The notes below the pieces were generated by a model. It did not search any database and had not been told where the DNA came from. It was given only the letters and a program-made list of their open reading frames with translations. From a virus, in IMG/VR virus record IMGVR_UViG_3300025327_000566, positions 1 through 26,321 of that record: DNA of 26,321 nt. The stretch is one strand, 5' to 3'. Of the stretch, positions 2 through 23,315 are shown one piece after another (position 1 is the first letter of the stretch; every line of letters starts with the position of its first letter). A program made the position numbers and the translations under genes.

Positions 2-634
2 AATAAAGATTTAAAAAGAAAAATAATTGATTTAAGTTATAACCATAAACTCTCTCATATTGGCAGTTGTCTTACTGCAGTAGACATTATTAAGGATATT
101 TATGATAAAAAGAAACAAGACGAGAAATTTATTCTATCAAACGGACACGCAGGAATAGCTCTTTATGTCGTACTGGAGAACTACTGGAAAGAAAACGGAA
201 GAAATATCGATGCCCAATATATGCTGGAAACACAAGGAATTCACCCTGATAAAACACAGGCTAATGAGTACATAGATTGCTCAACAGGAAGTCTTGGTAA
301 CGGAATTGGTATTGCCGTTGGTATGGCATTGGCTGATAGACCAAAAAATGTCTGGTGCATGATTTCAGATGGGGAACTTGGGGAAGGTAGTGTACACGAA
401 GCACTAAGAGTTGCTGATGAACAAAAACTTACAAACTTAAATGTTTATGTAAATTGGAACGGTTGGGCAGGATATAGAAATACGGATAAATATTATTGTC
501 CTATTTCAAGTTATGTAAATATTTATGAGACTAGAACTGATGTAAACTATCTTCCTTTTCTTGAAGGGTTAGAAGGACATTATCGTGTACTAAGTGAAGA
601 TGATTATAAAATTGCTATGGAAATATTAAAATGA
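2..634 (+). CDS. Transketolase-like TPP-binding (N-terminal/PP domain) subunit, 5' partial
   Basis: The reading frame is open from the window edge, so the true start lies upstream; 210 residues are visible. It matches the pyrophosphate-binding domain of transketolases. Visible residues 19-22 (HIGS) correspond to the first active-site His motif, SNGHAG (46-51) to the second, and GSLGNGIGIAVGMA (96-109) to the cofactor loop. SDGE (122-125) followed by N153-G154 is the Mg-TPP motif: D123 and N153 have the usual spacing of about 30. In such enzymes this subunit holds the diphosphate of thiamine diphosphate and pairs with a pyrimidine-binding subunit, here the next gene (ATGA overlap at 631-634). 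Together they would move a two-carbon ketol unit between sugars. The subunit looks shorter than the usual roughly 270-residue half-transketolase. The exact substrate is unknown; a role in making an unusual sugar is inferred from glycosyltransferase genes 10 kb downstream. Confidence 0.88.
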   Translation, partial: NKDLKRKIIDLSYNHKLSHIGSCLTAVDIIKDIYDKKKQDEKFILSNGHAGIALYVVLENYWKENGRNIDAQYMLETQGIHPDKTQANEYIDCSTGSLGNGIGIAVGMALADRPKNVWCMISDGELGEGSVHEALRVADEQKLTNLNVYVNWNGWAGYRNTDKYYCPISSYVNIYETRTDVNYLPFLEGLEGHYRVLSEDDYKIAMEILK

Positions 635-1152
635 CCCCTATAGAAAGACTACAAAACTATAAGATACATGACTCAATGCGTGGATATTTTGGTTATGAAC
701 TTTATAAAAAGATGATGGTTAATAATGATATTTGGATTATAACTGCCGATCTTGGCTATGGAATGTTTGATCCACACAAAGAAGATTTTTCTGATAGGTT
801 TATTAACGTCGGCGCAGCAGAACAAACAACCATGAATATAGCAATAGGCTTAGCATTATCTGGTAAAATTCCATTTGTTTATTCTATAACACCGTTTCTA
901 CTTTGGAGAGCAGCAGAACAAATCAGACTTTATGTAGACCATGAGAATATTCCTGTAAAACTAATAGGAAGTGGTAGGGACGATGATTATAAACATGATG
1001 GATTTAGTCATAATGCGGAAGATGCACAAAAAATATTAACTGTTTTTGATAACATTATAGAATACTGGCCTGAAGACAAAGTGGAGATGGCAAGAGTTAT
1101 AAATGAAATGACAGAAAATCTAAGACCTAGTTTTTTGAGTTTGAAAAGATGA
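631..1152 (+). CDS. Transketolase-like pyrimidine-binding (C-terminal half) subunit, shortened
   Basis: This 173-residue protein is the pyrimidine-binding domain of a transketolase-type enzyme. ITADLGYGMFD (37-47) is the typical first strand and loop. GAAEQ (61-65) contains the catalytic Glu (E64) that activates the aminopyrimidine of TPP. SITPFLLWRAAEQIR (85-99) matches the family's aromatic-rich helix start, and DGFSHNAED (123-131) matches the conserved G-x-S/T-H-x-x-E-D loop. It should form a heteromeric active site with the product of the preceding gene, which it overlaps by four bases (ATGA). Split transketolases usually have a C-terminal half of about 310 residues with an extra C-terminal domain. 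Here the protein ends right after the pyrimidine domain, so that third domain is absent and the next gene does not resemble it. Catalytic residues look intact; the substrate is unknown. Confidence 0.85.
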   Translation: MTPIERLQNYKIHDSMRGYFGYELYKKMMVNNDIWIITADLGYGMFDPHKEDFSDRFINVGAAEQTTMNIAIGLALSGKIPFVYSITPFLLWRAAEQIRLYVDHENIPVKLIGSGRDDDYKHDGFSHNAEDAQKILTVFDNIIEYWPEDKVEMARVINEMTENLRPSFLSLKR

Positions 1153-3510: not shown

Positions 3511-3955
3511 ACTACAAGAAGTACAAAGCATTGTAAGTAAAACTTATACTCATGAGGAACTTCATGAGGCCTTAATGTTTATACAGGATTTGCTTGAAAG
3601 AAGTATGATTGATTTCTTCTTATTGGGGGACACTGCAAAAGCTATAGTTTCAACGGATCTTCCAAAGTTTAACATGGACAAAATTCATATAGGAGTTACA
3701 AAAAACCATTATAATACTCCAGGAAAATCAATACTTAACACACTTTTAGACGAATGGCATGTTCCCAAAGTTGAAACTGAGAGAGGGTTAAGTTTAGATT
3801 ATAAGGGGCTTCCTATTGAGGTAGATATAATACAAAATGATTACTTCTTTTTTAGTAATCCTGATGTAAGATTTTATACAATAACAGAGTTTAGAGTACC
3901 AAATCCGATGAATGCCTATCTGTCATATTTAGAAAGGTTTAATGACGTTAAGTGA
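3488..3955 (+). CDS. Nucleotidyltransferase-fold-like protein
   Basis: The 155-residue protein has a pattern like minimal nucleotidyltransferases: a helical N-terminus, then FFLLGDTAKAI (43-53) resembling the G-G/S-T-A-L turn, NMDKIHIGV (62-70) resembling the D-x-D strand, and LPIEVDII (108-115) resembling the third acidic strand. The second Asp of the D-x-D position is His (H67), so catalysis may be lost or altered. The assignment is by eye and only moderate. An alternative ATG at 3497 would remove three residues and reduce the overlap with terL; an AGAGGA element lies just before. The gene sits between the large terminase and portal genes, so it may act in packaging or be a host-takeover factor; nothing in the sequence decides this. 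Confidence 0.5.
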   Translation: MIIMNINELQEVQSIVSKTYTHEELHEALMFIQDLLERSMIDFFLLGDTAKAIVSTDLPKFNMDKIHIGVTKNHYNTPGKSILNTLLDEWHVPKVETERGLSLDYKGLPIEVDIIQNDYFFFSNPDVRFYTITEFRVPNPMNAYLSYLERFNDVK

Positions 3956-7941: not shown

Positions 7942-9189
7942 ATGGCAGATGTTTCTTTAGCTAATGTATCTAATGCCCTGCAAAAGGTAATACTACCTTA
8001 TATACAGGACAACTTTCCCAAACAGAAACCACTATTAGATCAATTAAAAAGAAATGCGGATGTTACCTTCTTTAATGATAACTTCTATGCTCCGGTTAGA
8101 ACTGGTAGGCATGGGGGTATCACAAACTTGGCAACTGATGCGGGTTCTTTGGTAAGCAGCAATGCTTCAATTGGTCAGGCTTCTGTAGGGTATAAAGTTT
8201 TAACGGGTACTTTCAAGATCACCAAAGCAGTTTTGGATGCAACTAAAACCACGAAGGGTGCAGTGGAAAACCAACTGACCTTTCAAGCCAATTCTCTTAT
8301 GGATGACTTTGCAAAGGATGTAAACCGTCAGCTGTATAGTGATGGCTTGGGTGTTGTAGGACAGGTTTTAGGTTCTGTTGGTGCAGGTACTGCATCTTTA
8401 ACACAACCTGATTCCAGCCTTGATGATGGTAGAGGTACAGCCGAGAGATTTGGTTCTATAAACGGTGATATAGCAGTAAATAAATATATTCAAATTGGAA
8501 ATATACTTGGTATAGGTACTGCTGCAGCTGATGTTGGAACTGTTACCTCTGTGGGTGGAACTTCTATTGTAATGACAGGCGCACCTGCAATCGTAGCCAA
8601 TGACACTATATACAGACTTGATGGAGATGCCGCAGGAGCTGGTACTTCTGAAGTAGGTGGACTTATGGATGCGTTATCCATTCTCACCTCTGGAACTTAT
8701 GCCGGAATTGCAAACAGCACTTTCGGATGGAGTCCGCAGCTTGGTACAAGTTCAGCAGCATTAACCCTTTCCGAAATGGAAAGCAACTACTTAGCCGGTC
8801 TTGAGTATGCGCAGTCTGGTGACAAATACGCAATCTTTGTCAACAAAACCTTGTATAAAAAGTATGGTGACATACTAACTTCTATGAGAAGAACCGTTGA
8901 TACGAAGAAATTACTAGGCGGATGGAGTGGTTTAGCTTTTGAAGTAGGAGCAGGTGAAGTTGGGGTTTTCTTGGATTATGATGTTCCTGATGGAGAAGTC
9001 TATATCTTAAACTTGGACTCGTTTACCATATGTCAAATTTCTGACATGGGTTGGGCGGAAGACCCAAGTGGTGGAGCGTTGATAAGATCGAGAGGCACTT
9101 TACTTTACGAAGCTACTATGCACTGGTTTATGAACCTGTTGTGTAGAGCACCAGCTGCTAATGCAAGGTTGGTTCGAAAAACAGCCTGA
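7942..9189 (+). CDS. Major capsid protein (HK97 fold)
   Basis: The 415-residue product fits an HK97-fold coat protein. It starts with a helical N-arm (MADVSLANVSNALQKVILPYI). An E-loop-like region, FYAPVRTGRHGGITNLATDAG, precedes the long spine helix around AVENQLTFQANSLMDDFAKDVNRQLYSDG (about 106-134). A small beta insertion (VGTVTSVGGTSIVMTG to NDTIYRLDGD, about 193-230) is common in phage coat proteins, and EVGGLMDALSIL marks the return to the core. The C-terminal domain has ALIRSRGTLLYEATMHW and ends in the axial region. It has a perfect ribosome binding site. A stable hairpin follows the stop codon (9199-9234). It builds the icosahedral shell around the scaffold. Confidence 0.92.
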   Translation: MADVSLANVSNALQKVILPYIQDNFPKQKPLLDQLKRNADVTFFNDNFYAPVRTGRHGGITNLATDAGSLVSSNASIGQASVGYKVLTGTFKITKAVLDATKTTKGAVENQLTFQANSLMDDFAKDVNRQLYSDGLGVVGQVLGSVGAGTASLTQPDSSLDDGRGTAERFGSINGDIAVNKYIQIGNILGIGTAAADVGTVTSVGGTSIVMTGAPAIVANDTIYRLDGDAAGAGTSEVGGLMDALSILTSGTYAGIANSTFGWSPQLGTSSAALTLSEMESNYLAGLEYAQSGDKYAIFVNKTLYKKYGDILTSMRRTVDTKKLLGGWSGLAFEVGAGEVGVFLDYDVPDGEVYILNLDSFTICQISDMGWAEDPSGGALIRSRGTLLYEATMHWFMNLLCRAPAANARLVRKTA

Positions 9190-9656: not shown

Positions 9657-10322
9657 ATGCCTGGATTAAAAAAATACTTTCCTGATGTTAGGTTTGGTGC
9701 GAACAAGGTTACACCAGATGAAATTGACTGGAGAATTAGATACACAGTTACAAAGCCTTCGGCTGGTACAGCAGGTGTTGGAACACTGGCTGCTGGAACT
9801 GTTGCGGGTACTTTGGATTTACTTTCAACACAAAATGATTATCCCAGAAACTTGTTATATACAGTTGTAGGGCCGTCTGGTGGCGTTGGTGGTACATTTG
9901 CGGTTACGGGTACAGATCAGTTTGGGGTGTCAAAGACTGAAAGTTTAACTATCGCATCTGCTAATGCCGGTGGTACTGCCGCTGGAACACAGATTTTTGA
10001 TACTGTTTCCACGATAACTTACAACCCTAATGGTGTGGATAACACATCTACAACTACAGTAGGTTATGCAATCGGTACGGCTTCTGGACTTGTGGGCAAG
10101 TTAGGGCTACCTGTAAAGATAAAAGCAGTTGGTGATGTAAAGCGACTTACATGGATTAAAAACGGAACTTACACACCTATACAAGCTGGTACTATCGGAA
10201 CTTTGGTTGTGGATACTACAAATCATGCGTTTCGTGGTACAGCTGTAATGGCTGCGACTGATGAGTGGGTAGTTGAAATAAGACCAACATATAATTACGA
10301 GAATGATACAAATACAGTTTAA
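9657..10322 (+). CDS. Beta-rich virion protein, possible head decoration protein
   Basis: The 221-residue protein starts MPGLKKYFPDVRFGANKVTPDEIDW, then turns into Gly/Thr/Val-rich strand sequence. Typical segments are AGTAGVGTLAAGTVAGTLDLL, SGGVGGTFAVTGTDQFGVSKTE and TSTTTVGYAIGTASG, and it ends with WVVEIRPTYNYEND. This points to a beta-sandwich structural protein. It follows the capsid gene and has an almost equally strong ribosome binding site, so it is probably made in large amounts. A cement or decoration protein on the head surface is the best guess; a major tail or neck component is the alternative. No family name is certain. The gene ends just before a gap with a strong terminator, so it is likely the last gene of the head operon. 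Confidence 0.65.
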   Translation: MPGLKKYFPDVRFGANKVTPDEIDWRIRYTVTKPSAGTAGVGTLAAGTVAGTLDLLSTQNDYPRNLLYTVVGPSGGVGGTFAVTGTDQFGVSKTESLTIASANAGGTAAGTQIFDTVSTITYNPNGVDNTSTTTVGYAIGTASGLVGKLGLPVKIKAVGDVKRLTWIKNGTYTPIQAGTIGTLVVDTTNHAFRGTAVMAATDEWVVEIRPTYNYENDTNTV

Positions 10323-10356: not shown

Positions 10357-10397
10357 TAAACTACAAAGTGTCAACTCATGTTCTGTCATCCAGGGGG

Positions 10398-10448
10398 CAG
10401 AATGCCTTGTTTAATCGCCCTGGTGATTGAGCAAGGCATTCTGTTTTT
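10398..10448 (+). terminator. Strong intrinsic terminator with possible alternative pairings
   Basis: CAGAATGCCTTG (10398-10409) pairs perfectly over 12 bases with 10432-10443, and TTTTT follows at 10444-10448. The loop (10410-10431) has an inner four-pair stem. Upstream, TTCTG (10381-10385) can compete for the base of the stem (10398-10402), and CCAGGG (10390-10395) can pair with CCCTGG in the loop (10418-10423). The methyltransferase ATG follows the T-run directly. It ends the head operon and separates it from the sugar cassette. Confidence 0.88.
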
Positions 10449-11102
10449 ATGCAGGGAATATTCTTTAACGATTTTAATAACGCCTATATACCAGAAATTC
10501 TAAAAGAATTGTATCGTGATAAAGTCTATGCAGAGTATATTGAAAGACATGGAAGAAAAGATTTAGAGATTATTGACTGTGGAGGAAACGTGGGACTTTT
10601 TACTTACTACGTATACCCCTATGCTAAAAGAATTTATACAATAGAACCTTCAAAACAGCATTTAGATGTATTAAATTACATGCTTGAGTTTAATAAAATG
10701 ACCGATAAAGTAACTGTTATACCAAAAGCTTTAGCAAATGAAAACGGAAATCTAAAGTTTTATCATAATACAAACACCACAATGTTTTCATTAAAGGAGA
10801 ATGTTAATAATAAACCTGATGAGATTGAAGAAGTTGAAGCAATTACTGTGGATACGTTATTTACTCAATATAATGTAAAGCATATTGATTTTCTAAAGCT
10901 TGATGTAGAAGGGTCGGAAAGTGAGATAATTGGTGGAAATGGATTTGAACAGGTTGCGGATAAGATAGATAGTCTTGTGGTCGAGTATCATGCTTGGAGT
11001 AATACAAACCCCAATCAACTTGTAAACACTTTGAGAGATTATGGGTTTGATGTTAAGAAAATACCAACTCAAGCGGTTTTGTTTGGAGCCAAAAGAAAAT
11101 GA
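10449..11102 (+). CDS. FkbM-family methyltransferase (first of two)
   Basis: A SAM-binding Rossmann core is clear: IIDCGGNVGLFTYY (41-54) is motif I, YTIEPSKQHLDVL (63-75) holds the acidic residue that binds the ribose of SAM, and HIDFLKLDVEGSESEII (145-161) is the signature of FkbM methyltransferases. This family adds methyl groups to sugar hydroxyls or related small groups, often in surface glycan or antibiotic sugar pathways. At 217 residues it is a normal length. The ATG lies immediately after the T-run of a terminator and has no Shine-Dalgarno, so expression must depend on read-through and may be weak. It overlaps the second methyltransferase gene by four bases, and two glycosyltransferases follow. 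The likely substrate is a sugar put on by those transferases (inference). Confidence 0.88.
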   Translation: MQGIFFNDFNNAYIPEILKELYRDKVYAEYIERHGRKDLEIIDCGGNVGLFTYYVYPYAKRIYTIEPSKQHLDVLNYMLEFNKMTDKVTVIPKALANENGNLKFYHNTNTTMFSLKENVNNKPDEIEEVEAITVDTLFTQYNVKHIDFLKLDVEGSESEIIGGNGFEQVADKIDSLVVEYHAWSNTNPNQLVNTLRDYGFDVKKIPTQAVLFGAKRK

Positions 11103-11722
11103 TTGCTGATTACAAAAGTTATAAAATACATTGTTTCGATGACAGATTTGTTAAAGAGGTTTTAATTAATGAGGAGTATAGGTTTTCTAAAGAAGGTAAA
11201 ACTATTATAGATATTGGTGCAAATGTTGGTACTTATAGTATATATGCTTATGATAATGCTGAAATAATCTATGCTATCGAGCCTTCTGAGATTGAGTATG
11301 GGTATCTGGTAAGAAATGTTGAGGTGAATAATTTAGGAAAGATTAAAACTTTTAATATAGCGTTGGGTAAAGAAAATGGCAGACAAAACCTTTATATAGC
11401 ACATGGCAATGGCTCCGGTTCATTTTATGATGAAGGTAATGGTGCCTTTCAACCCGAATCGGTGGAAGTAAAGACATTAGCAACTTTTATGTTAGAAAAT
11501 AACATCGAGTACGTTGATTTAATGAAAGTGGATGTGGAAAAAGCCGAAACAGATATATTCTCTGCAGATGACTTTAAAGAGGTGAGTAATAAGATAGCTT
11601 TTATATTTGGAGAGAAACACGGCAATGACAACCAGTTAGAAGATATATTATCAAAGCATAACTTTGATGTACAGTTTATTGCTAACCACTTTATAGCAAG
11701 AAAAGTCTGGGGAGTGGAATGA
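11099..11722 (+). CDS. FkbM-family methyltransferase (second of two)
   Basis: This 207-residue protein also has SAM-binding motif I (IIDIGANVGTYSIYA, 36-50), the acidic strand end AIEPSE (59-64) and the FkbM signature region YVDLMKVDVEKAETDIF (138-154). In the last of these the usual Gly after DVE is Lys. The overall sequence is clearly different from the first copy, so this is not a recent duplication; the two probably methylate different positions or sugars. The gene overlaps both neighbours by four bases (ATGA), which fixes its start and suggests co-translation. As in the first gene, a role in O-methylation of a glycan is expected from the family and the adjacent glycosyltransferases, but the acceptor cannot be read from sequence. 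Confidence 0.87.
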   Translation: MIADYKSYKIHCFDDRFVKEVLINEEYRFSKEGKTIIDIGANVGTYSIYAYDNAEIIYAIEPSEIEYGYLVRNVEVNNLGKIKTFNIALGKENGRQNLYIAHGNGSGSFYDEGNGAFQPESVEVKTLATFMLENNIEYVDLMKVDVEKAETDIFSADDFKEVSNKIAFIFGEKHGNDNQLEDILSKHNFDVQFIANHFIARKVWGVE

Positions 11723-12495
11723 AACAACCAAGAGTTGCATTTACCATAGCCGATGAAAAGAATATGCCAATGGCTAAAAAACTTCTGAATAACATAAGAA
11801 AGTTCCACAGTGAAGAAGAACTGCCATTTATTATTATTGATGATGAAAAGATTAAAACTTACAACGATCCGACATTCTTTTATCGTGCGACCCCTCTTAT
11901 TGCCAGTGAGTTAATAAAAGATTATGAACTTGTTTTGAAGTTAGATTGTGATCAACTGGTGTTCTCTGGTATTTCTCATATTTGGGAACATGATGATTAT
12001 GATGTTGGTACTGTACTTAACATAAACAGAGTTGATCCCGCAAAGTTTGGTTATGTGACTACTTTTGTTATCGACCCGCAGGAATATTTTAATTGTGGAC
12101 TTGTTGCAATGAAAAGCGAAAGATTTATAGATAAGTGGCTGGAACTTTGCTATTCAAAGTATTTTGATAGGCTACAATATAGAGAGCAGGATTTATTAAA
12201 CGTACTCTGTTATTTTGGTGATTTTAAAGTTAAATGTTTCGATAGGTATGACGTGTTACACGATATATCATCATGGTGGGGACTTATTGCAAAGGGGGAA
12301 GGGATGAGAATGGAGAAGGTAACGGGCGGTGTGAAACTTTCAAAGGGTGTTGATAACTATCCTGACCGTGATGTTGATGTAAAGCTATATCATTTTGCAG
12401 GTGGTGGACACGAACCAAAGAACCACAGGATATTATTCAATGAAGAAATAATAAGTTATATAGACTGGTTACAATCAGATGATAACTCCAAGTAA
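11719..12495 (+). CDS. GT-A fold glycosyltransferase, GT8-like
   Basis: The 258-residue protein has the features of a nucleotide-sugar-dependent GT-A transferase. RVAFTIADEKNMPMAKKLLNNI at the start is the first strand and helix. LVLKLDCDQLV (71-81) contains the metal-binding D-x-D (D76, D78). EYFNCGLVAMKSERF (122-136) is the typical acceptor-side N-x-G strand, YREQDLLN (154-161) contributes acidic residues, and LYHFAGG (223-229) resembles the metal-binding His near the C-terminus of GT8 enzymes. It would transfer a sugar from a UDP-type donor with retention of configuration if it is truly GT8. It overlaps the methyltransferase before it by four bases and the next glycosyltransferase by 17. 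The acceptor may be a virion protein or host surface glycan. Confidence 0.82.
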   Translation: MKQPRVAFTIADEKNMPMAKKLLNNIRKFHSEEELPFIIIDDEKIKTYNDPTFFYRATPLIASELIKDYELVLKLDCDQLVFSGISHIWEHDDYDVGTVLNINRVDPAKFGYVTTFVIDPQEYFNCGLVAMKSERFIDKWLELCYSKYFDRLQYREQDLLNVLCYFGDFKVKCFDRYDVLHDISSWWGLIAKGEGMRMEKVTGGVKLSKGVDNYPDRDVDVKLYHFAGGGHEPKNHRILFNEEIISYIDWLQSDDNSK

Positions 12496-13666
12496 AAAAC
12501 TACGAATACTATTTAATACTAACGCTATATGGTCGCCAAGTGGCTATAGTCAGCAAGCAAGACAATTTATACCTCTTATTAGGCGTGAGGGTTATCCAAC
12601 AGCAATTTCTAACTTCTATGGACAAGAGGGCGGGATATTTGAACTTGATGGAATTATGATGTATCCAAAGATTGCAAACCCGTGGGGAGAAGATGCGATG
12701 ATAGAACACTCAAAACACTTTAACGCTGATGTTATCATCTCTTTGCAAGATGTATGGGTACTTAACATGGATGCGTTAAAAGCATTAAATCAAATGGGTA
12801 AGAAATGGATAACACTTTTACCTGTTGATCATGAACCTATACCCCCAGCTGTACTTGATAGGGTTAAAATGGCATATAGGGTTTTATCTATGTCGCCGTA
12901 TGGATACAGAGAGTTAAAAAGAGTTGGTATTAACTCAACTTATATGCCACATACTGTTCCAACAGAGCATTTTAGAAAATACGATAGAGTGCAAATGCGT
13001 AAAGAACTGGGGCTTCCTGAAGATATATTTTTATTTGGAATGGTCGCCGCTAATAAAGATCATCCGCCACGAAAAGGATTTCAACACGTTTTAGATGCCT
13101 TTAACTTATTCCAAATAGAACATCCCAAATCCGGTATTTATTTTCATGTTAATGTAAAACAACAGGGGGGTTTTCAGATAGAGGAGTATGCTAAAAATCT
13201 GGGTTTTGCAGATAAACTGTATTCAACACCGCCTTACAAGCTTTTATATGATGTACCGCCCGAAGATATGGCCAAGATTTATTCAGCTTTTGATTGTTTA
13301 CTAGCTCCTTCCACTAATGAGGGGTTTGGAATACCCGTAATTGAAGCACAAAGCTGTGAAGTTCCTGTTATAACGACGGACTGGACTTCCATGAGGGATT
13401 TGGTGATTGATGGTGAAACAGGTTTTAAGGTAAAAAATGGGTTTAAAAGGTTTGATCAACTAGGTTCTTATGTGCTGGAAGTTGACTATAAAGAATTATA
13501 TGATCGTATGGAAGATGTTTTTGATACTGACAGGGATAAAATGGGGAAAGAAGGAAGAAGATTTATACTTGATAATTTTGACTTAAAGTTTGTGTTTGAA
13601 ACTAAATGGAAACCGTTTTTAGAAATGCTTGAAAAAGAAATCTATTTAGACGATAATAAGAAGTAG
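12479..13666 (+). CDS. GT-B fold glycosyltransferase, GT4-like
   Basis: This 395-residue protein starts with RILFNTNAIWSPSGYSQQARQF (9-30), whose Gly-rich turn is typical of the first strand-loop of GT-B enzymes. The C-terminal donor domain begins near FLFGMVAANKDHPPRKGF (184-201), where Lys/Arg residues contact the nucleotide diphosphate. The family signature E-x7-E is clear in STNEGFGIPVIEAQSCEVPV (278-297; E281 and E289), followed by TGFKV. These features fit family GT4, retaining transferases using nucleotide sugars. Length is normal. It overlaps the preceding glycosyltransferase by 17 bases and ends the sugar cassette, 39 bases before a small beta-rich virion gene. Two different glycosyltransferases suggest at least a disaccharide or two kinds of linkage. 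Confidence 0.88.
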   Translation: MITPSKKLRILFNTNAIWSPSGYSQQARQFIPLIRREGYPTAISNFYGQEGGIFELDGIMMYPKIANPWGEDAMIEHSKHFNADVIISLQDVWVLNMDALKALNQMGKKWITLLPVDHEPIPPAVLDRVKMAYRVLSMSPYGYRELKRVGINSTYMPHTVPTEHFRKYDRVQMRKELGLPEDIFLFGMVAANKDHPPRKGFQHVLDAFNLFQIEHPKSGIYFHVNVKQQGGFQIEEYAKNLGFADKLYSTPPYKLLYDVPPEDMAKIYSAFDCLLAPSTNEGFGIPVIEAQSCEVPVITTDWTSMRDLVIDGETGFKVKNGFKRFDQLGSYVLEVDYKELYDRMEDVFDTDRDKMGKEGRRFILDNFDLKFVFETKWKPFLEMLEKEIYLDDNKK

Positions 13667-13705: not shown

Positions 13706-14005
13706 ATGGTTAATTCAGCAAGTCAATCTGAGTATAGACATATTATTGGTACAGCTGCTGGTACTACTGTTCTTCTTGATAGAAATGGCGGATTTGAACG
13801 AGTAATACTTAATAAAAACCAAACAGGAACCGTAACTTTTTATGATGTGGCCACTGCCGCCGGCAGTACCGCTGCTAATCTCATAACTGTTATGAATAAT
13901 AATGTAGGATCAATTCCTACAGGTGTAGAACTGGGATGTAGAGTAAAATATGGTCTTGTAGCAGTAGTGGGTGGTACGACTGATTTTACAGTTGTTTTTA
14001 ACTAA
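13706..14005 (+). CDS. Small beta-sandwich virion protein, 99 aa
   Basis: The protein reads as alternating strands and Gly/Thr turns: IIGTAAGTTVLLDRNGGFERVILNKNQTGTVTFYDV, AANLITVMNN and ending GLVAVVGGTTDFTVVFN. This pattern (a lead-in, RV-I-NK, G-TVT-YD, and a closing strand pair with TVV) is shared by small phage virion proteins that cap or decorate particles, as I recall them; no name is certain. The ATG lacks a clear Shine-Dalgarno; the nearest AGG is about 15 bases upstream. It is the first gene after the sugar cassette and precedes the fibre gene by 12 bases, so it probably belongs to the surface or fibre block. Confidence 0.65.
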   Translation: MVNSASQSEYRHIIGTAAGTTVLLDRNGGFERVILNKNQTGTVTFYDVATAAGSTAANLITVMNNNVGSIPTGVELGCRVKYGLVAVVGGTTDFTVVFN

Positions 14006-14017: not shown

Positions 14018-14944
14018 TTGTCTTCAAGTTATCCTGGGACTATACAATCAGTAACTGATTACGCAGGGACAGTAACTCTTGCTAATGCAGATCACGCAAA
14101 TTGGCATGCTACAACATCAGATACTGTGGAAGCAATAGAGACTGTACTTGGTACAACTGCAGGAACTTCAGTATTAAAAAACTTTGCTGCAGGAGATTTT
14201 CCTGCAAGAATAAACTCGTCAAACGTATTACAGCAAGCACTGCAAGGGACTATAAATACTTCAACTTTAGGTACTCCAACAGTAATACTTGGCTCTGACG
14301 CAACAGGTGATTTACACTACAGGTCTGCAGGTGGGACTATGACAAGGCTTGGGGTTGGTAGTAATGGACAGTATTTGACAACAAATGGTACAACACCATC
14401 GTGGGGAAGTGTGAGTACAGATTATCAAAGTGGTACACAAATTTATGCCACTGACGGTGGTGCAAACGATACCTATGCCATTACTTTATCTCCTGTTCCT
14501 GGTTCTTTAACAACGGGGATGGTGGTACATTTTAAAGCAAATACAGTAAATACAGGTTCAGCAAGTTTAAATGTAAACTCTCTTGGCGAAAAGCCAATTT
14601 ATAAAAGTCAGAATAAACTACTTGATACAGGAGATATAAAAGCGAACCAACTTACATCAGTTATATATGATGGTACAAACTTTCAGCTTTTAGGAATGTC
14701 TGGTAAAAGAATTGAAGCTGGTCGTGGCACGAGTGATGGTAGTGGCGATGTGTCTGTAACATTCACACAAGCGTTTTCTGCAGCACCTAATCTTGTTGTA
14801 ATGGCTGCACCAGCTGGTGGCACACCTTGTTATGCAAACATTTCAGCAGCTATTACTACATCAGGAGTTTCAATAAGAACTTATGGTTCCGTTGGTGCTC
14901 TTTTAGGTACGGTGCCTGTTGAATGGATGGCATTTGGATATTAA
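14018..14944 (+). CDS. Tail fibre / receptor-binding protein with lectin-like C-terminus
   Basis: The 308-residue protein starts at TTG with a good AAGGAG. Its N-terminal part (DYAGTVTLANADHANWHATTSDTVEAIETVLGT) resembles the attachment region of phage fibres. GDLHYRSAGGTMTRL followed by GSNGQYLTTNGTTPSW (about 105-130) is a motif seen in many tail fibres. The centre (FKANTVNTGSASLNVNSLGE, then VIYDGTNFQLL) resembles repeated fibre domains. The C-terminal 79 residues from KRIEAGRGTSDG contain SVTFTQAFSAAPNLVVMAAP and end VEWMAFGY, the layout of H-type lectin domains that bind sugars. It probably recognises a cell-surface glycan. It lies directly before the giant repeat protein, with a three-base gap. 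Confidence 0.78.
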   Translation: MSSSYPGTIQSVTDYAGTVTLANADHANWHATTSDTVEAIETVLGTTAGTSVLKNFAAGDFPARINSSNVLQQALQGTINTSTLGTPTVILGSDATGDLHYRSAGGTMTRLGVGSNGQYLTTNGTTPSWGSVSTDYQSGTQIYATDGGANDTYAITLSPVPGSLTTGMVVHFKANTVNTGSASLNVNSLGEKPIYKSQNKLLDTGDIKANQLTSVIYDGTNFQLLGMSGKRIEAGRGTSDGSGDVSVTFTQAFSAAPNLVVMAAPAGGTPCYANISAAITTSGVSIRTYGSVGALLGTVPVEWMAFGY

Positions 14945-14947
14945 CTT

Positions 14948-17900
14948 ATGGCAATAGAAGTAATAAAAGTAACAGATGGCACACAAACACCTATAGGTTT
15001 TGATCAGGTCGGCACTGTCTATGAACAGGTGATAAAACTTGATATAAGTGCAGATGGTGCGGCTTCAGCAATTTTATATGATGGCAAAGTACAGGGTGGA
15101 ACAATAAATGCAGCAACGGTTGCTGGTGGTTCTATTGCTGTAACTGCGGGTACTGTAAATGTTACAGCTTTTGGTGCAGACATACCAGGTGGCACAATCG
15201 ATTTAGTAACCCGTGTAGGAAATGTTGGAACATTGGAAGTGGGTACAATTTCAATTTTACCTAACATACCGGGAGGGACTTTAGGTCTTATTACAAGGGT
15301 AGGGAATCTCGGTACTGTAGAATCAGGTACTCTAACAAGTGTTGGTTCAGTAAGTGGTGTTGGTGGAACTGTAATGGTTGATATTGTGGCTGGTGATATC
15401 GTTGCTTCACTAGGTACTATAAATTCAGGAACAATTACAAGGGTTGAACAGGGTTCTATTAATGTTACTGCAGCAACTATTACAGCTGGTTCTATTAGGG
15501 TTACAGTAGGTACAACTGGTGGTGCTGTAGCATCAGGTGCTGCTGCAGTTGGTAATCCAAATATTATAGCGGGAACTGATAGTGGTGGAACGGTATATTC
15601 TTTTCTAACTGACACAACTGGTCATGTAAAAGCAGATATTTTAACAGGAACTGTAACAAATGTGGGAAGTGTTGTTGGGATTGGTTCAGTATCTAATGTT
15701 GCTTTTATTCATAATGCCGGAACGATAGCAGCTTTACCCGATCTTACTGGTGGGACTGTAGATTTAGTTACAACCGTAAGTAACTTAACAAACGGCAGTG
15801 TAAGAATGACAGTTGGGACTTTGACGGTTATGCCTAACGTACCAGGTGGAACACTAGGTGTTGTGTCATCTCTTACTACAGGGTCAATAATTGTAACAAA
15901 CGGTACGGTTGCTGCAGGTACAGTTGGGGGTAAAGCTGCTAGTGGAGTGGTAATATCAGGTAATCCCATACCCGTTGGTGGTACAGATAGTGGTGGAACG
16001 GTATATTCTTTCTTAACGGACACATTAGGACATATGAAAGTGGATATGGTGAGTGGAACACTTAACGTTGGTACTGTTACAACATCTGTTCAAGTTGGCA
16101 CTATTAATGTTGGAACTATAAATACAGGAACTATAAATGCGGGAACAGTTGATTTATTAAAAGCTGGAACTGTAACAAGACTCGAACAAGGATCAGTAAA
16201 CGTAACTGTTGGAACGATAGGCGGAAAAGCAGCATCTGGTGCTGTAGCTGTTGCTAACCCAGTTTTTATTGCAGGGACAGACCCGGGCGGGACTGTGTAT
16301 GGTTTAAGAACGGATACAGCAGGGGTTTTACAAATAAATGGTACTGTTTCTACAGGCGGTGCGGGAACACAAGCAGTACGTCTTGTAGACGGTACTTTGA
16401 CTAGGGTTGAGGGTGGAACGCTAGGACTTATAACAAGAGTGGGAAATATCGGAACTTTGGAAGTTGGAACGGTAACCATAGGGGCTGTTAATTCCATAGG
16501 AACATTAGGAACATTGCAATTAGGTACTGTGGTTGTTAACGCTGGAACAAATGTAATAGGAAACGTAGGATTAGTGGATTCATCAGGTATTTATGGTTTG
16601 GATTTTATTGTTACACAAACTGACGGTGCTTCAGATGGCTTAAACGGACTTGTAGCTTCATCTTTTGGTTATTACCACAATGGAACTAACTGGGACAGAG
16701 TGCGAGGTGATCTTACTAACGGACTTCTTGTAAATTTAGGGGCAAACAATGATGCGGTTATAACTGCCGGTACCATAACGCATGGAACTATAGATGTTGG
16801 AACAATTACTGTTGGTACAGTATATAAAGGTGTACCAGCACCAGCTGCTGGTAGTCTAACTGCAGCGGGGACTGTAACTGTTGCCGGAAGTCAGAACGAT
16901 ACTGTCTATTGGGAAGTTGGCGGAACATGGGTAGGAACTGCATTTTTTGAAGGACAAGTAGGAACAAGTACTTATTTTGCAGTACCAGTAACAACACCGC
17001 TTGGGGTTATAGGAACACAAACTACAAGTAATGGTGCTTTTTTAATGTCAGCTACGGGACTCGATAATACCAGACTTAGAGTTACTTACAGTTCAGGTAC
17101 ATTGACTCACAACGAACGTGCTTCTAATTTCTTCTCAAACTTAAGTTATATAATGGCTGGTTCTGTAACTAATATGGGATCAGTTTCAAATATTGGCCAG
17201 CTTTATAATGCTGGGACTATACAAACAATACTTGCAGGGACTATAAATAACTCTGGTACAACAACAGGTGTTGGAGTAGTTTCAATGTTAAGTGCCGGTA
17301 CCGTTACAAAACTGGAACAGGGTTCTATTAATGTTACAGCGGGAACAATTACAGCAGGGACTTTAACTGCTTTGGCAAACGGTACAGTTACTGCGGGTTC
17401 TATAAGAGTGACGTTAGGAACAGTTGTAGGTGCGGCAGCTTCCGGTGCGGCAGCTTCCGGTGGCCCGGTATTAACTGGTGGTACAGATGGCGGTGGTACT
17501 GTTTATAGTTTTCTAACTGATACAACAGGGCATATGAAAGCCGATCTTTTAACGGGTACTGTAACAAGTGTTGGTTCCGTTACAGGTGTTGGGGTTGTTA
17601 CAAACCTTACAAGTGGTTCTGTAAGAATGACAGTTGGGACTTTGACGGTTATGCCTAACGTACCAGGTGGAACACTAGGTCTCTTACAAGCTGGTACTAT
17701 AAGTATGTTATCTGCAGGTACAGTATCGATGTTAAATGCAGGAACTCTAACGACAATTCCTAATATTCCAGGTGGAACAATAGGTGTTGTATCAAGTTTA
17801 ACTACAGGTTCAATAGCAGTAACAGCAGGAACAGTGATAATGACCAATGGCACTATCGGTGCGGGAACAGTTGTTGTTTCTGCAGCTACTATTGCAGCAG

Positions 17901-18262
17901 GTACAATTTCTGCAAGAAATACAGAAAATATTTTAACTTATGGTACACAGTTTGCAGCAACAGCTGCAGCTTACGCAACTCTAGTTGGTTCGGCATCGGT
18001 TGGTTCTGGGACATCTTTATACATGCAGAACTTTAATCTTATCAACCCCGCTGGTACAGTATTGGCACTTCTTGGTCTTGGTACAGCATTAAATGGGACT
18101 TCAGTATTATTTAGAGGAATACTTGGAACACAAACTGTTGGCGGGATACAAAAATCATGGGATAAACCCGTTAATGCAGGAATGACTAACCAAGATTTGG
18201 TTGTATACTTAGGTGCTGCAGGAACAGTTGATGTTACAGTTAGTTATTTCATAAAGGTATAG
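14948..18262 (+). CDS. Giant Gly/Thr-repeat beta-solenoid-like virion protein, 1104 aa
   Basis: This protein is dominated by short repeats with GT followed by I, V or L about every 6-12 residues, which suggests a stacked beta-strand fibre or solenoid. Recurrent modules include IPGGT-L-G-LITRVGN-GT-E-GT, MPNVPGGTLG and VTRLEQGSINVTAGTITAG. A second module of about 38 residues (A-SG, NP, GTD-GGTVYSFLTDT-GHMK) occurs four times, near residues 193, 331, 427 and 828. A non-repeat domain lies near 625-735 (VYWEVGGTWVGTAFFEGQVG), and the last 100 residues (YMQNFNLINPAGTVLALLG to VDVTVSYFIKV) form a different closing domain. It contains nucleotide-level repeats (separate entries). It is likely a long surface fibre or tail appendage. 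Its Thr/Ser-rich surface makes it a candidate acceptor for the neighbouring glycosyltransferases, which is inference. Confidence 0.75.
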   Translation: MAIEVIKVTDGTQTPIGFDQVGTVYEQVIKLDISADGAASAILYDGKVQGGTINAATVAGGSIAVTAGTVNVTAFGADIPGGTIDLVTRVGNVGTLEVGTISILPNIPGGTLGLITRVGNLGTVESGTLTSVGSVSGVGGTVMVDIVAGDIVASLGTINSGTITRVEQGSINVTAATITAGSIRVTVGTTGGAVASGAAAVGNPNIIAGTDSGGTVYSFLTDTTGHVKADILTGTVTNVGSVVGIGSVSNVAFIHNAGTIAALPDLTGGTVDLVTTVSNLTNGSVRMTVGTLTVMPNVPGGTLGVVSSLTTGSIIVTNGTVAAGTVGGKAASGVVISGNPIPVGGTDSGGTVYSFLTDTLGHMKVDMVSGTLNVGTVTTSVQVGTINVGTINTGTINAGTVDLLKAGTVTRLEQGSVNVTVGTIGGKAASGAVAVANPVFIAGTDPGGTVYGLRTDTAGVLQINGTVSTGGAGTQAVRLVDGTLTRVEGGTLGLITRVGNIGTLEVGTVTIGAVNSIGTLGTLQLGTVVVNAGTNVIGNVGLVDSSGIYGLDFIVTQTDGASDGLNGLVASSFGYYHNGTNWDRVRGDLTNGLLVNLGANNDAVITAGTITHGTIDVGTITVGTVYKGVPAPAAGSLTAAGTVTVAGSQNDTVYWEVGGTWVGTAFFEGQVGTSTYFAVPVTTPLGVIGTQTTSNGAFLMSATGLDNTRLRVTYSSGTLTHNERASNFFSNLSYIMAGSVTNMGSVSNIGQLYNAGTIQTILAGTINNSGTTTGVGVVSMLSAGTVTKLEQGSINVTAGTITAGTLTALANGTVTAGSIRVTLGTVVGAAASGAAASGGPVLTGGTDGGGTVYSFLTDTTGHMKADLLTGTVTSVGSVTGVGVVTNLTSGSVRMTVGTLTVMPNVPGGTLGLLQAGTISMLSAGTVSMLNAGTLTTIPNIPGGTIGVVSSLTTGSIAVTAGTVIMTNGTIGAGTVVVSAATIAAGTISARNTENILTYGTQFAATAAAYATLVGSASVGSGTSLYMQNFNLINPAGTVLALLGLGTALNGTSVLFRGILGTQTVGGIQKSWDKPVNAGMTNQDLVVYLGAAGTVDVTVSYFIKV
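15578..15603 (+). repeat. 26-bp direct repeat, copy 1 (GTD-GGTVYSF module)
   Basis: This stretch is identical to 15986-16011. It encodes the DSGGTVYSF part of the four-copy module in the giant repeat protein; the fourth copy near 17490 uses different codons. Confidence 0.85.
15799..15859 (+). repeat. 61-bp perfect direct repeat, copy 1
   Basis: These 61 bases are identical to 17620-17680 and encode VRMTVGTLTVMPNVPGGTLG in both places. Identity at silent positions points to recent duplication or gene conversion, since other copies of the module have diverged. Confidence 0.92.
15986..16011 (+). repeat. 26-bp direct repeat, copy 2
   Basis: Identical to 15578-15603, about 400 bases downstream in the same gene. 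Confidence 0.85.
17429..17458 (+). repeat. Perfect 15-bp tandem duplication
   Basis: GGTGCGGCAGCTTCC occurs twice in direct succession (17429-17443 and 17444-17458), encoding GAAAS twice in the giant repeat protein. It keeps the reading frame and may vary in copy number. Confidence 0.9.
17620..17680 (+). repeat. 61-bp perfect direct repeat, copy 2
   Basis: Identical to 15799-15859. The flanking sequences differ on both sides, so the duplicated unit is sharply bounded. Confidence 0.92.
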
Positions 18263-19745: not shown

Positions 19746-20029
19746 TGGCTGGACTAATATTCTTATGGCAGGGTATTCCAGCAGTTTTAGTAAACACAGA
19801 TAGTGGTTTAAAACCAGATGTTCTAATAGATGTTTTAGAACCCATACTTTTTGTTGATAGTACCGATGCAGTATTTACAGATTCCACTGTAACTGTAAAC
19901 GATAGTGTAATAACTGTAAACGATGGAACTGCGTTGGTTGGTGGCAGAGACACGTTTAGCTGGAAAGCAAATATTTCTGCTAAAATAGACGATATAAAGC
20001 CTATATTCTTTAAAGTTGGAGATTTATGA
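19745..20029 (+). CDS. Small structural-region protein, 94 aa
   Basis: The 94-residue product starts MAGLIFLWQGIPAVLVN, has an acidic centre (LIDVLEPILFVDSTDAVFTDS) and two nearly identical strand units (STVTVNDSVITVNDGTALV), then ends with SWKANISAKIDDIKPIFFKVGDL. No family is recognised. The start is shared with the previous stop (TAATG), and the stop overlaps the next start by four bases (ATGA), so it is firmly part of the tail operon. The VTVND repeat echoes the strand-rich style of its neighbours. It could be a small linker between the surface protein and the neck, but this is only from position. Confidence 0.6.
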   Translation: MAGLIFLWQGIPAVLVNTDSGLKPDVLIDVLEPILFVDSTDAVFTDSTVTVNDSVITVNDGTALVGGRDTFSWKANISAKIDDIKPIFFKVGDL

Positions 20030-21168
20030 TAGTTAAAATTGTTAATAATCTTGATAAAATATCACCGTACTCGTTTTTAAGCGGTAGTGTTGCATCAGGT
20101 GCCGGTACTTTTCCTGTTAAAAATATCAACACGTTTTCTGCAAATTGGGCAATACAATTTGGTGCAACCAAAGAAGAAAAATCCGAAATACTTGTAATTT
20201 CTGCATCAGCACCATCAGGTACAGCACTTGTTACAACAGGCACAGCTAGATTTGATCACCCCGAAGATACATTAGTATATGCGACTCATTATGACCAAGT
20301 AATTTTTAAAAGGTCGACAAGTGGAACCGCTGGTACTGCTACGGCAATGACAAACGGTACAGTTACAATTACACCGGATTCGCAGTATACCCAATTTGAT
20401 GATACAAGTGGTGCAACAACCTATGCGTATAAAGCGCAGTTTGTAAACTCCGTTAGCGGTGATTTATCAAGCGAGTCTGACTGGCTCACACCTAGTGGGT
20501 ATACTTTTTACTCAAAGTATAGTTTAAGGGAGAGAACAAAGAATAAATTATTTTCAGCCAATTATATAAAAAACAACGACATGGTGGATGAGTGGATAAA
20601 TGAGTGGCTTGAAACCATGAATAATACTGCTGTTGAGGTTAACGAAGATTATAACATTGGAACTGTAAATGTTTCTTTTGGCACGAATGGTTTGGGGACA
20701 ATAACAAGCGCAGATTTTAAAGAAATTAGAAAATTAGATGTAACTACTGACGGTGCTAATTATTACAGGGCTGTGAGAATAAAGACCATTGATTTTGGGC
20801 CACAGGAAACTTTTGAATCAACCAATCCATATTTTTATATGGAGGGGGATACTGTATTTGCAGTTAAAAATGGGGATACTGCTGGTACTGCAAGAATAGT
20901 TTATTACAGACTTGGGACAACTTTAGCAAACGAAACAGACGAACTTCCAACAGTTATGAAAGGGTATACCAAGTCTTTTACAGATTATTGTTTATCGCAG
21001 TCTTATTACTTAGATAATAAAGTTGAGCTTGGAGACAGATTTAGTACCTTTGCACAAGCGGGCAAAGAATCATTTAAATTGGAAATAACACCGAGAGGAA
21101 AGACAGGCCCACAGTTTATACCGCTTGTTGATCCTATATCGGGAGATGATTTTTACGGATATTTATAA
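20026..21168 (+). CDS. Probable neck / head-tail adaptor protein with N-terminal beta domain
   Basis: The 380-residue protein has two parts. Residues 1-155 are strand-rich (SGSVASGAGTFPVKNINTF, EILVISASAPSGTALVTTG, RFDHPEDTLVYATHYDQVIF, then TYAYKAQFVNSVSGDLSSES), a domain type found in virion proteins of several phages. Residues 165-380 are more helical (LRERTKNKLFSANYIKNNDMVDEWINEWLETMNN) and end with LPTVMKGYTKSFTDYCLSQSYYLDNKVELGDRF, similar in layout to adaptor proteins that bind below the portal. The position just before the nozzle gene matches P22 gp4. The fit is by layout rather than clear motifs. Overlap with the upstream gene is four bases, and the next gene starts directly after the stop. 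Confidence 0.6.
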   Translation: MIVKIVNNLDKISPYSFLSGSVASGAGTFPVKNINTFSANWAIQFGATKEEKSEILVISASAPSGTALVTTGTARFDHPEDTLVYATHYDQVIFKRSTSGTAGTATAMTNGTVTITPDSQYTQFDDTSGATTYAYKAQFVNSVSGDLSSESDWLTPSGYTFYSKYSLRERTKNKLFSANYIKNNDMVDEWINEWLETMNNTAVEVNEDYNIGTVNVSFGTNGLGTITSADFKEIRKLDVTTDGANYYRAVRIKTIDFGPQETFESTNPYFYMEGDTVFAVKNGDTAGTARIVYYRLGTTLANETDELPTVMKGYTKSFTDYCLSQSYYLDNKVELGDRFSTFAQAGKESFKLEITPRGKTGPQFIPLVDPISGDDFYGYL

Positions 21169-22596
21169 ATGGCCACTCAAAGAATCTTTAATCTTACAGG
21201 TTTAAACTTATATACAAATCCTATTTTAAGAGATGAGGGACAGCCTATTCATTGTGTAAATATGGTTTCAGACCCAATGGGTGCAAAAACCAAAAGAAGT
21301 GGTTATGATACATTTTTAGGAACTGCGAATGGTAGTGCTGTAACTGATCTTTTTTCGTGGACAAAGGATGATGGATCACTTCTTGTTTATAGAAATAGTG
21401 GTGGACTTCTATATTACTCAACCAGTGGCACCGGTGTATGGACTATAGCTGGTAATGGTACTGTAACAGCAGGAAATCATGTGGGATATGCAATACTTAA
21501 TAACACTTTAATACTTGGAGATGGTGCAGGTTCTACAAGGCATACTACAAACGGCACTTCATTTACTGATACAACATTAGCACCTGTTGGTGAGCATTTC
21601 GCACAGTATTTAAATAGAGTTTATATAGGCGGTACAGCATCAACAGTCTTTTATTCAACATCAAATGATGTTACTAACTGGAATACATCAGGAACTTCTG
21701 ATTCAAGTTCTTTTAATATACACAGTGCTGGGAAGATAAACAAAGTCTTTAAATGTGCGGATAGGCTTGTTGGTTCCAAAACATCAGGTGAAATGTTTAG
21801 ATGGGATGGTTTATCTATTCTTGATATGTCAACAAATCAAGGCCTGAGTTCTCCTTACAGTGTTTCTCAAAAAGAGGGATTTTACTTTTATCTTAATAGA
21901 GATGGGATAGTCGGTTATGGTGGTGAAAGACCAAAGATTATATCAAACGCTATTCAATCACAAATTTACAACACTATGGGGAGTGCTATAGCAGGGAGTA
22001 ATTTTGACACACTTTCCGGTGTTACACATCACTACGATTACTATTTATCAGCAGGAACAATTACCGATACCTTATCAAGAGATCAAATAAATAACTGCGT
22101 AATAAAATACGACTTTATGAAAAATGAGTTCACAAATTACTCAATACCAGATTATCCTACAACGTGGCACTCGTTTAAAGATGCTAATGGAGTACAGCAA
22201 TTAGTGTTTGGTGATTCAACTGGACAGTGCTATAAGTTTGTAGGTACAGCAACAACAGATGATGGTGTTGCAATAGAATGTAAACTAGAGTTTGTTGTGG
22301 ACATGACACAACCTGAAAATGACAAGTTATGGAGATGGGTATATGTATTTACTAATCCTGGATGTCAGGCAAAATGCCAACTAGCTTTTGCAGATACTTA
22401 TAGGACTGATTCTAAAAACTGGATTGAAATTGGTGATTTAACAGCAGGAGTAACAGAATTTAGAATACCTACAGAGTTTCAAGGGCATGCTTCAAGAAGC
22501 AAGTTTATGTTTGTTAAATTTTACGAGACATCAAAAGATATGCCATTTACTTTATATGGCTTTGTGGTTGATGCGGATATAGAAACAGCAAAATGA
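21169..22596 (+). CDS. Tail nozzle / tubular protein (beta-propeller type)
   Basis: The 475-residue protein shows repeated strand-turn units with Gly, Asn and Asp: LFSWTKDDGSLLVYRNSGGLLYYS, YAILNNTLILGDGAGSTRHTTNG, YLNRVYIGGTASTVFYSTSNDVTNW and MFRWDGLSILDMS. The sequence FYSTSNDVTNW resembles the characteristic S-x-x-D/N-P/V-x-x-W segment of podovirus nozzle proteins (P22 gp10 and T7 gp12 type), which form a six-bladed propeller ring at the tail tip. The start LNLYTNPILRDEGQPIHCVNMVSDPMG is also typical: a viral-ring strand with RSGY following. It begins one base after the previous stop and overlaps the next gene by four bases. It would extend the neck and hold fibres or a needle. Confidence 0.78.
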   Translation: MATQRIFNLTGLNLYTNPILRDEGQPIHCVNMVSDPMGAKTKRSGYDTFLGTANGSAVTDLFSWTKDDGSLLVYRNSGGLLYYSTSGTGVWTIAGNGTVTAGNHVGYAILNNTLILGDGAGSTRHTTNGTSFTDTTLAPVGEHFAQYLNRVYIGGTASTVFYSTSNDVTNWNTSGTSDSSSFNIHSAGKINKVFKCADRLVGSKTSGEMFRWDGLSILDMSTNQGLSSPYSVSQKEGFYFYLNRDGIVGYGGERPKIISNAIQSQIYNTMGSAIAGSNFDTLSGVTHHYDYYLSAGTITDTLSRDQINNCVIKYDFMKNEFTNYSIPDYPTTWHSFKDANGVQQLVFGDSTGQCYKFVGTATTDDGVAIECKLEFVVDMTQPENDKLWRWVYVFTNPGCQAKCQLAFADTYRTDSKNWIEIGDLTAGVTEFRIPTEFQGHASRSKFMFVKFYETSKDMPFTLYGFVVDADIETAK

Positions 22597-23315
22597 CAGA
22601 ATTAAATGAAAACCTAACTCCTGTAGATGCTCCTATAAATAGCGGTAGTGTAGTTAATTCATACGATTTTAACTCAAAAAACGATAGGAACATTATAAAC
22701 AGTTATAACTTAGGTACGTTTTCCACTGATAAAATAACTGCAGGTACTATAGATGCTTCATTAATTACAGTTACCAATATAAGTGCAACAAACATTACAA
22801 CAGGAACGATGTCCGCAAGTCTTATTACAGGTGGCACTTTATCAGCCGATCGTATTGGGGGTGGAACCGTAACAGCTAACATTTTGACTGCAGGTACTAT
22901 AAGTGGGACTGTTGTCGATCTCACTAATGTAAATGCGTCAAATATAACTGTGGGTACTATAACAGGAATAAAATTTAGAACGAATGTTGCTGGTTCTGCT
23001 AGAGTAGAGCTTGAAGCTAACCAAGCACTAATCGATATATATGATAGTGGGGATGACCTAGTTTTAAGGATTGATGATAATGGAACGGATGTAACATTTT
23101 CCGCATTTGACGGAAGAAATGTTGCTTTAGATGCTGCTGGTGGGGCAAGTGTTTACTGTAACGATCCGTTAGATATGAACAGTAACGATATAAAGACTGT
23201 CAAGGTGATTAATTTTATAACTACCGGAAATCATGGTGGTAACAATTCTGTTTATGTTAAAGATAACGAAGTTTATGCAAAGGATGGTTCAGGAAATTCT
23301 ACGCAACTAACATGA
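22593..23315 (+). CDS. Tail fibre or needle-like protein with 'NITTGT / AGTI' repeats
   Basis: Residues 45-125 of this 240-residue protein are a run of short repeats (DKITAGTIDASLITVTNISA, NITTGTMSASLITGGTLSAD, RIGGGTVTANILTAGTIS). This type is common in trimeric phage fibres and tip proteins. The C-terminal half (ARVELEANQALIDIYDSGDDLVLRIDDNG, then GGASVYCNDPLDMNSNDIKTV) is the usual fibre-to-tip transition, in which DLDMNSNDI-like motifs occur. It follows the nozzle gene, where P22 has its needle (gp26), so a trimeric central needle or a side fibre is likely. Four-base overlaps with both neighbours fix the start and stop. The repeat style is shared with the giant protein at 14948. Confidence 0.7.
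   Translation: MTELNENLTPVDAPINSGSVVNSYDFNSKNDRNIINSYNLGTFSTDKITAGTIDASLITVTNISATNITTGTMSASLITGGTLSADRIGGGTVTANILTAGTISGTVVDLTNVNASNITVGTITGIKFRTNVAGSARVELEANQALIDIYDSGDDLVLRIDDNGTDVTFSAFDGRNVALDAAGGASVYCNDPLDMNSNDIKTVKVINFITTGNHGGNNSVYVKDNEVYAKDGSGNSTQLT

Follow-up and report, generated by a model that had tools for sequence, protein, structure and literature searches.

What does a phage do with two sugar methyltransferases and two glycosyltransferases in among the genes for its own particle? The question is raised by IMG/VR virus record IMGVR_UViG_3300025327_000566, a single linear record of 26,321 bases that we analysed whole and call the window. Four overlapping genes at 10449-13666, referred to here as the cassette, lie in it between head and fibre genes, and their products could in principle act on the virion, on the host surface or on the phage DNA. 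From comparison of sequences we think it likely that the cassette serves cytoplasmic O-glycosylation of virion proteins, with a sugar that is made by the phage and is often methylated. The genes are as follows.

10449..11102, + strand: FkbM-family S-adenosylmethionine (SAM) methyltransferase 1, of the sugar O-methyltransferase type (PF05050 3.9e-19, TIGR01444 9.3e-24; SAM motif conserved)
11099..11722, + strand: FkbM-family SAM methyltransferase 2 (PF05050 2.9e-14, TIGR01444 3.7e-23)
11719..12495, + strand: GT8-type glycosyltransferase, GT-A fold, retaining type, with DxD (PF01501; LgtC by phmmer, 2.4e-05; AlphaFold/Foldseek)
12479..13666, + strand: GT4-type glycosyltransferase, GT-B, with E-x7-E, proposed to be a protein O-glycosyltransferase (PF00534 8.6e-18)

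The cassette enzymes

A preliminary description, made from the DNA letters, had these four genes as one overlapping unit between head and fibre genes, and open reading frames and profiles confirm this for position and strand, with overlaps of 4, 4 and 17 bases. Both FkbM proteins are above the curated cut-offs of PF05050 and TIGR01444 in profile searches and so fall within the family, sugar O-methylation being the predicted activity, and D43, G45, G49, E66, K150, D152 and E154 are invariant among relatives. The GT8 protein is slightly over the PF01501 cut-off (4.3e-06, 26.9 bits; cut-off 24.3) and has D76-x-D78 and H225 conserved among relatives. Its AlphaFold model (predicted local distance difference test score, pLDDT, 95) has the GT-A/GT8 fold, and Foldseek matches it to LgtC, GlyE and glycogenin, with modest template-modelling (TM) scores, and also to domain 1 of A064R of chlorovirus PBCV-1 (2p73, E 4e-06). 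The GT4 protein scores 64.9 bits against PF00534 (8.6e-18; cut-off 26.4), and both Glu residues of E281-x7-E289 are invariant among relatives. By fold or domain and by motif the two predicted proteins are thus members of GT8 and GT4. No transmembrane segment was found in the four enzymes (none above KD19 1.2), and PADLOC gave a weak partial methyltransferase match and nothing else.

Position of the cassette in relatives

Capsid homologues were collected from IMG/VR down to 46-48% identity of the major capsid protein (MCP), and synteny was counted over the 45 loci of the capsid family whose sequence extends 4.3 kb or more downstream of the MCP gene. The slot that follows the capsid gene holds a GT4 gene in 43 of the 45 and a GT8 gene in 42, and FkbM genes are present in 34/45 (two copies in 14 loci, one in 20 and none in 11). 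Of the two loci with no GT4 gene in the slot, one (L029) is an odd fragment and the other (L135) has the gene further downstream, behind an island of sugar genes. These are phage-encoded glycosyltransferases linked to virion genes. Scans with single-sequence GT4 or GT8 patterns were unproductive and alignment-based scans were successful; a 25-row capsid alignment was too diverse for scanning. In L024, L030, L133, L134 and L138, and partly in L128, there is by eye a GroES-GroEL chaperonin pair between the second FkbM gene and GT8, perhaps for the folding of capsid or cassette proteins.

The nearest GT4 relatives outside this family are in phages with a capsid protein that is not detectably similar (phrog_267/544). 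In this second group GT4 starts 53-2455 bp past the MCP gene in all 40 of the loci where both were found. A search driven by the MCP of the second group, in a sample biased toward close relatives, found GT4 at 413-1325 bp in 69 loci; a further 7 were too short to be scored, and 3 had no GT4, these last being the distant isolates HTVC111P, HTVC202P and DSL-LC06. Two cultured phages have a GT4 gene in the post-capsid position, the Microcystis phage Mae-JY09 and the Pontimonas phage phiPsal1, the GT4 of phiPsal1 being a more distant relative. The distant capsid relative DSL-LC06 (L234) has other glycosyltransferases upstream of its terminase, one KpsC-like and one annotated as a sialyltransferase.

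Gly-Thr pairs in virion proteins

Over the family, in sequences that are related and not independent, Gly-Thr pairs occur at 2-3.2x the composition expectation in the capsid, 9657-type, beta-helix, 13706-type, adaptor, 21169-type and fibre-like proteins, and no excess was found in the portal, terminase, scaffold, cassette enzymes or sugar enzymes. As conserved residues confound the ranking of dipeptides within a family, per-genome contrasts were used instead. The per-genome ratio for virion proteins is 1.96-2.98 in 32 genomes, against 0.91-1.63 in seven control phages, and the observed/expected ratio is 2.60 for virion against 0.76 for non-virion proteins, with the same direction in 25/25 genomes. 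None of the other contexts tested (other residues preceding Thr, and Gly-Ser) is raised, the range being 0.49-1.00. The triplet Gly-Thr-(Ala/Val/Ile) reaches 5.35x; control phages have 1.09, and portal, terminase and scaffold 0.53. All 16 codon pairs are used for Gly-Thr. In the second GT4-bearing group the excess is present in capsid, decoration, neck and tail-tube proteins, with the same +1 preference, and absent from portal and head-morphogenesis proteins; the value for Mae-JY09 virion proteins is 1.8x. We read the excess as a candidate O-glycosylation sequon. An earlier idea, that Gly-Thr sites wander freely among relatives, failed a column-aware check and was withdrawn.

In the window six proteins exceed their own shuffles (p <= 0.0035), and those at 18537 and 21169 do not. 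The acceptors proposed in the preliminary description were the proteins at 9657, 14018, 14948 and 18537; the first three have the excess and stay on the list, and 18537 is dropped from it. The better candidates are the proteins at 7942, 9657, 14018, 14948, 20026 and 22593, listed here with the small protein at 13706.

7942..9189, + strand: major capsid protein, candidate acceptor (NF033394 3.6e-37; Gly-Thr 10 vs 4.0 expected)
9657..10322, + strand: all-beta virion-type protein just ahead of the cassette, candidate acceptor (model pLDDT 83; Gly-Thr 13 vs 4.5 expected)
13706..14005, + strand: small beta-rich virion-type protein, candidate acceptor (family Gly-Thr 2.98x)
14018..14944, + strand: fibre-like protein, candidate acceptor (phrog_4900 1e-11; Gly-Thr 13 vs 5.3 expected)
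14948..18262, + strand: repeat protein of 1104 amino acids, candidate acceptor (84 Gly-Thr pairs vs 30 expected)
20026..21168, + strand: SU10-type adaptor, candidate acceptor (PF24175 6e-06; Gly-Thr 11 vs 3.6 expected)
22593..23315, + strand: fibre-like protein, candidate acceptor (phrog_1330 9.7e-12; Gly-Thr 9 vs 3.1 expected)

A structure search with the model of protein 9657 gave no confident fold match, so that a role as decoration protein is suggested by its place alone. Very long Gly-Thr repeat proteins of the 14948 type are found in most members of the family (also in L019, L020 and L023), with place and length varying.

Probable genes for the donor sugar

The window begins with a transketolase in two halves.

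2..634, + strand: N-terminal, thiamine pyrophosphate (TPP)-binding half of transketolase, cut by the contig end (PF00456 1.1e-12; NF004559 3.3e-24)
631..1152, + strand: pyrimidine-binding half of transketolase (PF02779 2.7e-16)

In many relatives the two halves are directly ahead of the terminase, usually behind a short-chain dehydrogenase/reductase (SDR) gene. L003 adds an HddA-like kinase, a nucleotidyltransferase and GmhA, all profiled, and L030 has in a single row GmhA, a 96-residue haloacid dehalogenase (HAD)-type protein (judged by eye), HddA, a nucleotidyltransferase, an SDR and both transketolase halves. It is only in L030 that the heptose set (GmhA, heptose kinase, phosphatase and nucleotidyltransferase) is contiguous, with scores under the equivalog cut-offs. 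The Roizmanbacteria host of one family member, described below, has its own full-length transketolase, so the split phage transketolase is an extra one.

Other branches have other genes, assigned mostly by eye. In L132 the module is swapped for apparent aldolase, TPP-enzyme, SDR and aminotransferase genes. In L135 and L036 there is an island of about 9 kb between capsid and GT4 with different sugar genes, which reads as a zinc-ribbon methyltransferase, two radical SAM enzymes, a TPP enzyme, a nucleotidyltransferase, an SDR and a NeuB-like synthase. The donor in the window's branch would thus be of heptose type, with donor modules exchanged between branches. Open reading frames resembling HNH/NUMOD homing endonucleases (by eye) interrupt sugar modules in L024 (1948-2415), L133 (16450-16941) and L138 (17239-17625), and may help the transfer of such modules among phages. 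A gene for a SAM methyltransferase like the TylF/macrocin O-methyltransferases (by eye) adjoins the transketolase halves or lies between them in L018 (3389-4225) and on the L148 contig (461971-462588).

Proposed function and alternatives

We suggest that the phage encodes a system for virion glycosylation and that the cassette supplies its enzymes, which would act in soluble form in the cytoplasm late in infection. GT4 probably starts the glycan by linking a sugar to the Thr of Gly-Thr-(Ala/Val/Ile/Ser) sites of the capsid protein, its beta-rich neighbour, the adaptor and the fibres; GT8 would add a second sugar, and the FkbM enzymes would O-methylate the sugars. The donor would be at least partly made by the phage, with the split transketolase supplying sedoheptulose-7-phosphate, and GmhA, the HAD-type protein, the HddA-like kinase, the HddC/MurU-like nucleotidyltransferase and the SDR of several relatives taking it to a nucleotide-heptose type of sugar. 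We infer the attachment of sugar, the use of Gly-Thr as sequon, the order GT4 then GT8, the identity of the heptose and any benefit to the phage. If the virion is what is glycosylated, four things are explained at once: where the cassette lies, why it lacks membrane parts, why donor genes are present and why Gly-Thr is in excess. The proposal of virion-protein modification in the preliminary description is well supported by the clade-wide fixation behind the capsid gene, the GT4 gene behind an unrelated capsid gene and the Gly-Thr excess outside portal and scaffold. Its choice of methylhexose or methylpentose, and the purpose it suggests, concealment of the phage from receptors or immunity, are not supported in this way; for the sugar, what the relatives indicate is a heptose type or some other sugar made by the phage and not a plain hexose or pentose.

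Several observations weigh against this proposal. There is no Gly-Thr excess in phiPsal1 (1.23), and surface exposure of the virion proteins was assumed from their type. The donor pathway is complete in relatives only, the window starting inside the transketolase. The loci counted for synteny were chosen by similarity and are hence not independent, and only three GT4-less relatives were at hand, all of them distant. Most of the Gly-Thr excess sits in alignment columns that are moderately to well conserved and not in free-moving sites, and among the control phages Hardycor1 reaches 1.63. These last two points leave room for a structural turn preference, by which the excess would be a property of beta-rich virion proteins only, even if the enzymes do modify virions. 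Beta-turn preferences exist, and we regard this explanation of the excess as rather doubtful but one to be taken seriously. However the virion proteins of T7, P22, lambda, P23-45, Shocker and Tunturi_4 are only at 0.91-1.37, Gly-Ser is not raised, and the capsid proteins of two unrelated families share both the excess and the +1 preference.

With regard to the target, the enzymes might instead alter the polysaccharide or S-layer of the host, thereby blocking superinfection or changing adhesion. At least one family member is a Roizmanbacteria prophage, which makes lysogenic conversion possible; nucleotide-sugar genes in phages of groundwater Patescibacteriota have been proposed to modify the host surface (PMC12911398); and split transketolases are also found in the hypervariable region of SAR11, with glycosyltransferase, methyltransferase and epimerase genes (PMC6811365). 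However the cassette has no membrane carrier or flippase-like protein, it has a fixed place among late virion genes in two unrelated phage groups, no tyrosine integrase was found in 20 long relatives, and host-surface modification does not predict a Gly-Thr excess that is restricted to virion proteins. We therefore consider action on the host surface unlikely. Glycosylation of modified bases in the phage genome seems to us very improbable, although DNA glycosylation by phage glycosyltransferases is known (Pyle 2024, cited in PMC12619734; PMC12838424 for Shewanella phage Thanatos). The pyrimidine hydroxymethylase that goes with hyperglycosylation of DNA in T4 was looked for as thymidylate-synthase-type PF00303, which is absent from 20 relatives of 36-49 kb, records that may be incomplete, the window itself being partial and TET-like, cytosine and 7-deazaguanine routes not having been searched. 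The late, capsid-linked position of the cassette also argues against a role in DNA modification, which has no tie to Gly-Thr.

Comparison with known systems

The closest working analogues are the capsid glycans of mycobacteriophages and chloroviruses. Virion glycosylation is reported for mycobacteriophages Che8, Rita and relatives (Freeman et al. 2023, as described in PMC12619734, PMC11256854 and PMC12691614). These too are tailed phages with their own glycosyltransferases, and the glycans, which in their case are proven, sit on the tail tube and the major capsid protein, whereas the present system is predicted from genes. The transferases of Maravista are described there as near the 3' end of the genome, in contrast to the fixed GT8-GT4 pair past the capsid gene, and FkbM methyltransferases, donor-sugar genes and a proposed Gly-Thr sequon are further differences on our side. 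In PBCV-1 (A064R, A061L; PMC9614988) the major capsid protein bears a methylated glycan that is built and capped by enzymes of the virus itself: a GT-A transferase, another transferase and two SAM O-methyltransferases. This set of enzymes is similar, but PBCV-1 is a eukaryotic virus with an N-glycan containing rhamnose and xylose and with fused domains, and the likeness to the window is one without demonstrated sequence homology. Cytoplasmic O-glycosylation of flagellin (e.g. FlmG, PMC7591256) likewise has a dedicated transferase acting on a self-assembling surface protein, but is cellular and uses a different transferase.

In the case of the donor the comparison is with the GDP-D-glycero-D-manno-heptose pathway (GmhA, HddA, GmhB, HddC), for which L030 has contiguous GmhA-, HddA- and HddC/MurU-like genes and the HAD-type protein; the pathway differs from L030 in that the scores of the latter are below equivalog level and that the split transketolase and SDR are added. 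O-antigen conversion of the P22 gtrABC type also involves a phage glycosyltransferase operon. However the P22 system needs membrane GtrA, GtrC and a bactoprenol carrier, none of which was seen here, and gtrABC is outside the virion assembly row, whereas the cassette is within such a row; the combination of membrane flippase and transferase that marks gtrABC seroconversion was not found in the four cassette enzymes. In the literature searched, mostly outside subscription journals, we did not find a description of capsid-linked GT8/GT4 with FkbM caps, exchangeable donor modules and a candidate sequon.

Gene row and host

The main genes of the window form one row on the + strand: the split transketolase (2-1152), small terminase (1758), large terminase (2212), portal (4207), scaffold-like gene (7153) and capsid gene (7942), then two small genes, the cassette, and fibre and tail genes. 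Terminase, portal and MCP genes are thus all upstream of the cassette. Directly ahead of it there is one further feature.

10397..10444, + strand: terminator-like hairpin between structural gene 9657 and the cassette (20-bp stem and T run)

A strong hairpin (z < -2) is present in the gap between the 9657-type gene and the cassette in 35/40 phages, the window counted. Given this position, we regard the cassette as a sub-unit downstream within the late gene row, and its enzymes would be made by read-through at a lower level than the structural proteins. In the window a protein of 155 amino acids is encoded at 3488-3955, and it is kept between terminase and portal in many relatives. It had no match in Pfam, PHROG or NCBIfam, and by eye it is like a degenerate nucleotidyltransferase.

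In bacterial genomes a GT8-based scan found one family member, a prophage on a 487-kb contig of Candidatus Roizmanbacteria UBA1450, flanked by ordinary chromosomal genes, with a tRNA-Leu and a tyrosine recombinase on the left side. A capsid-based scan of genome contigs found no host, and two samplings of Patescibacteria (379 and 372 genomes) gave no copy beyond this prophage. As a relative is integrated in Roizmanbacteria, the host of the window is probably, if not certainly, also a patescibacterium. On the Roizmanbacteria contig (L148/L149, 468242-483071) the stretch between scaffold and last tail gene, both included, has the opposite orientation to the portal and lysis genes, either through an assembly error or because the segment is invertible.

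Implications

Taking both phage groups together, a broader proposal can be made: that the two, though unrelated, share a post-capsid GT4 that recognises Thr in the sequon Gly-Thr-(Ala/Val/Ile/Ser), that virion proteins have adapted to it, and that sugar modules of heptose, nonulosonate and aminosugar type are swapped, so that the glycan varies as O-antigens do. This is quite possible, though we lean slightly against it in this full form. Virion glycans are proven in few phage systems. If the cassette does glycosylate virions, the trait would be central to a phage family that is widespread and uncultivated, with one member a Patescibacteria prophage, and equally to a second family, to which a cultured Microcystis phage belongs; an acceptor motif is predicted for it, and its donor module varies. 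A direct prediction is that sugar will be found on Thr of Gly-Thr sites. The nucleotide-sugar genes of such phages would then be for synthesis of a virion coat, and not auxiliary genes for the host surface.

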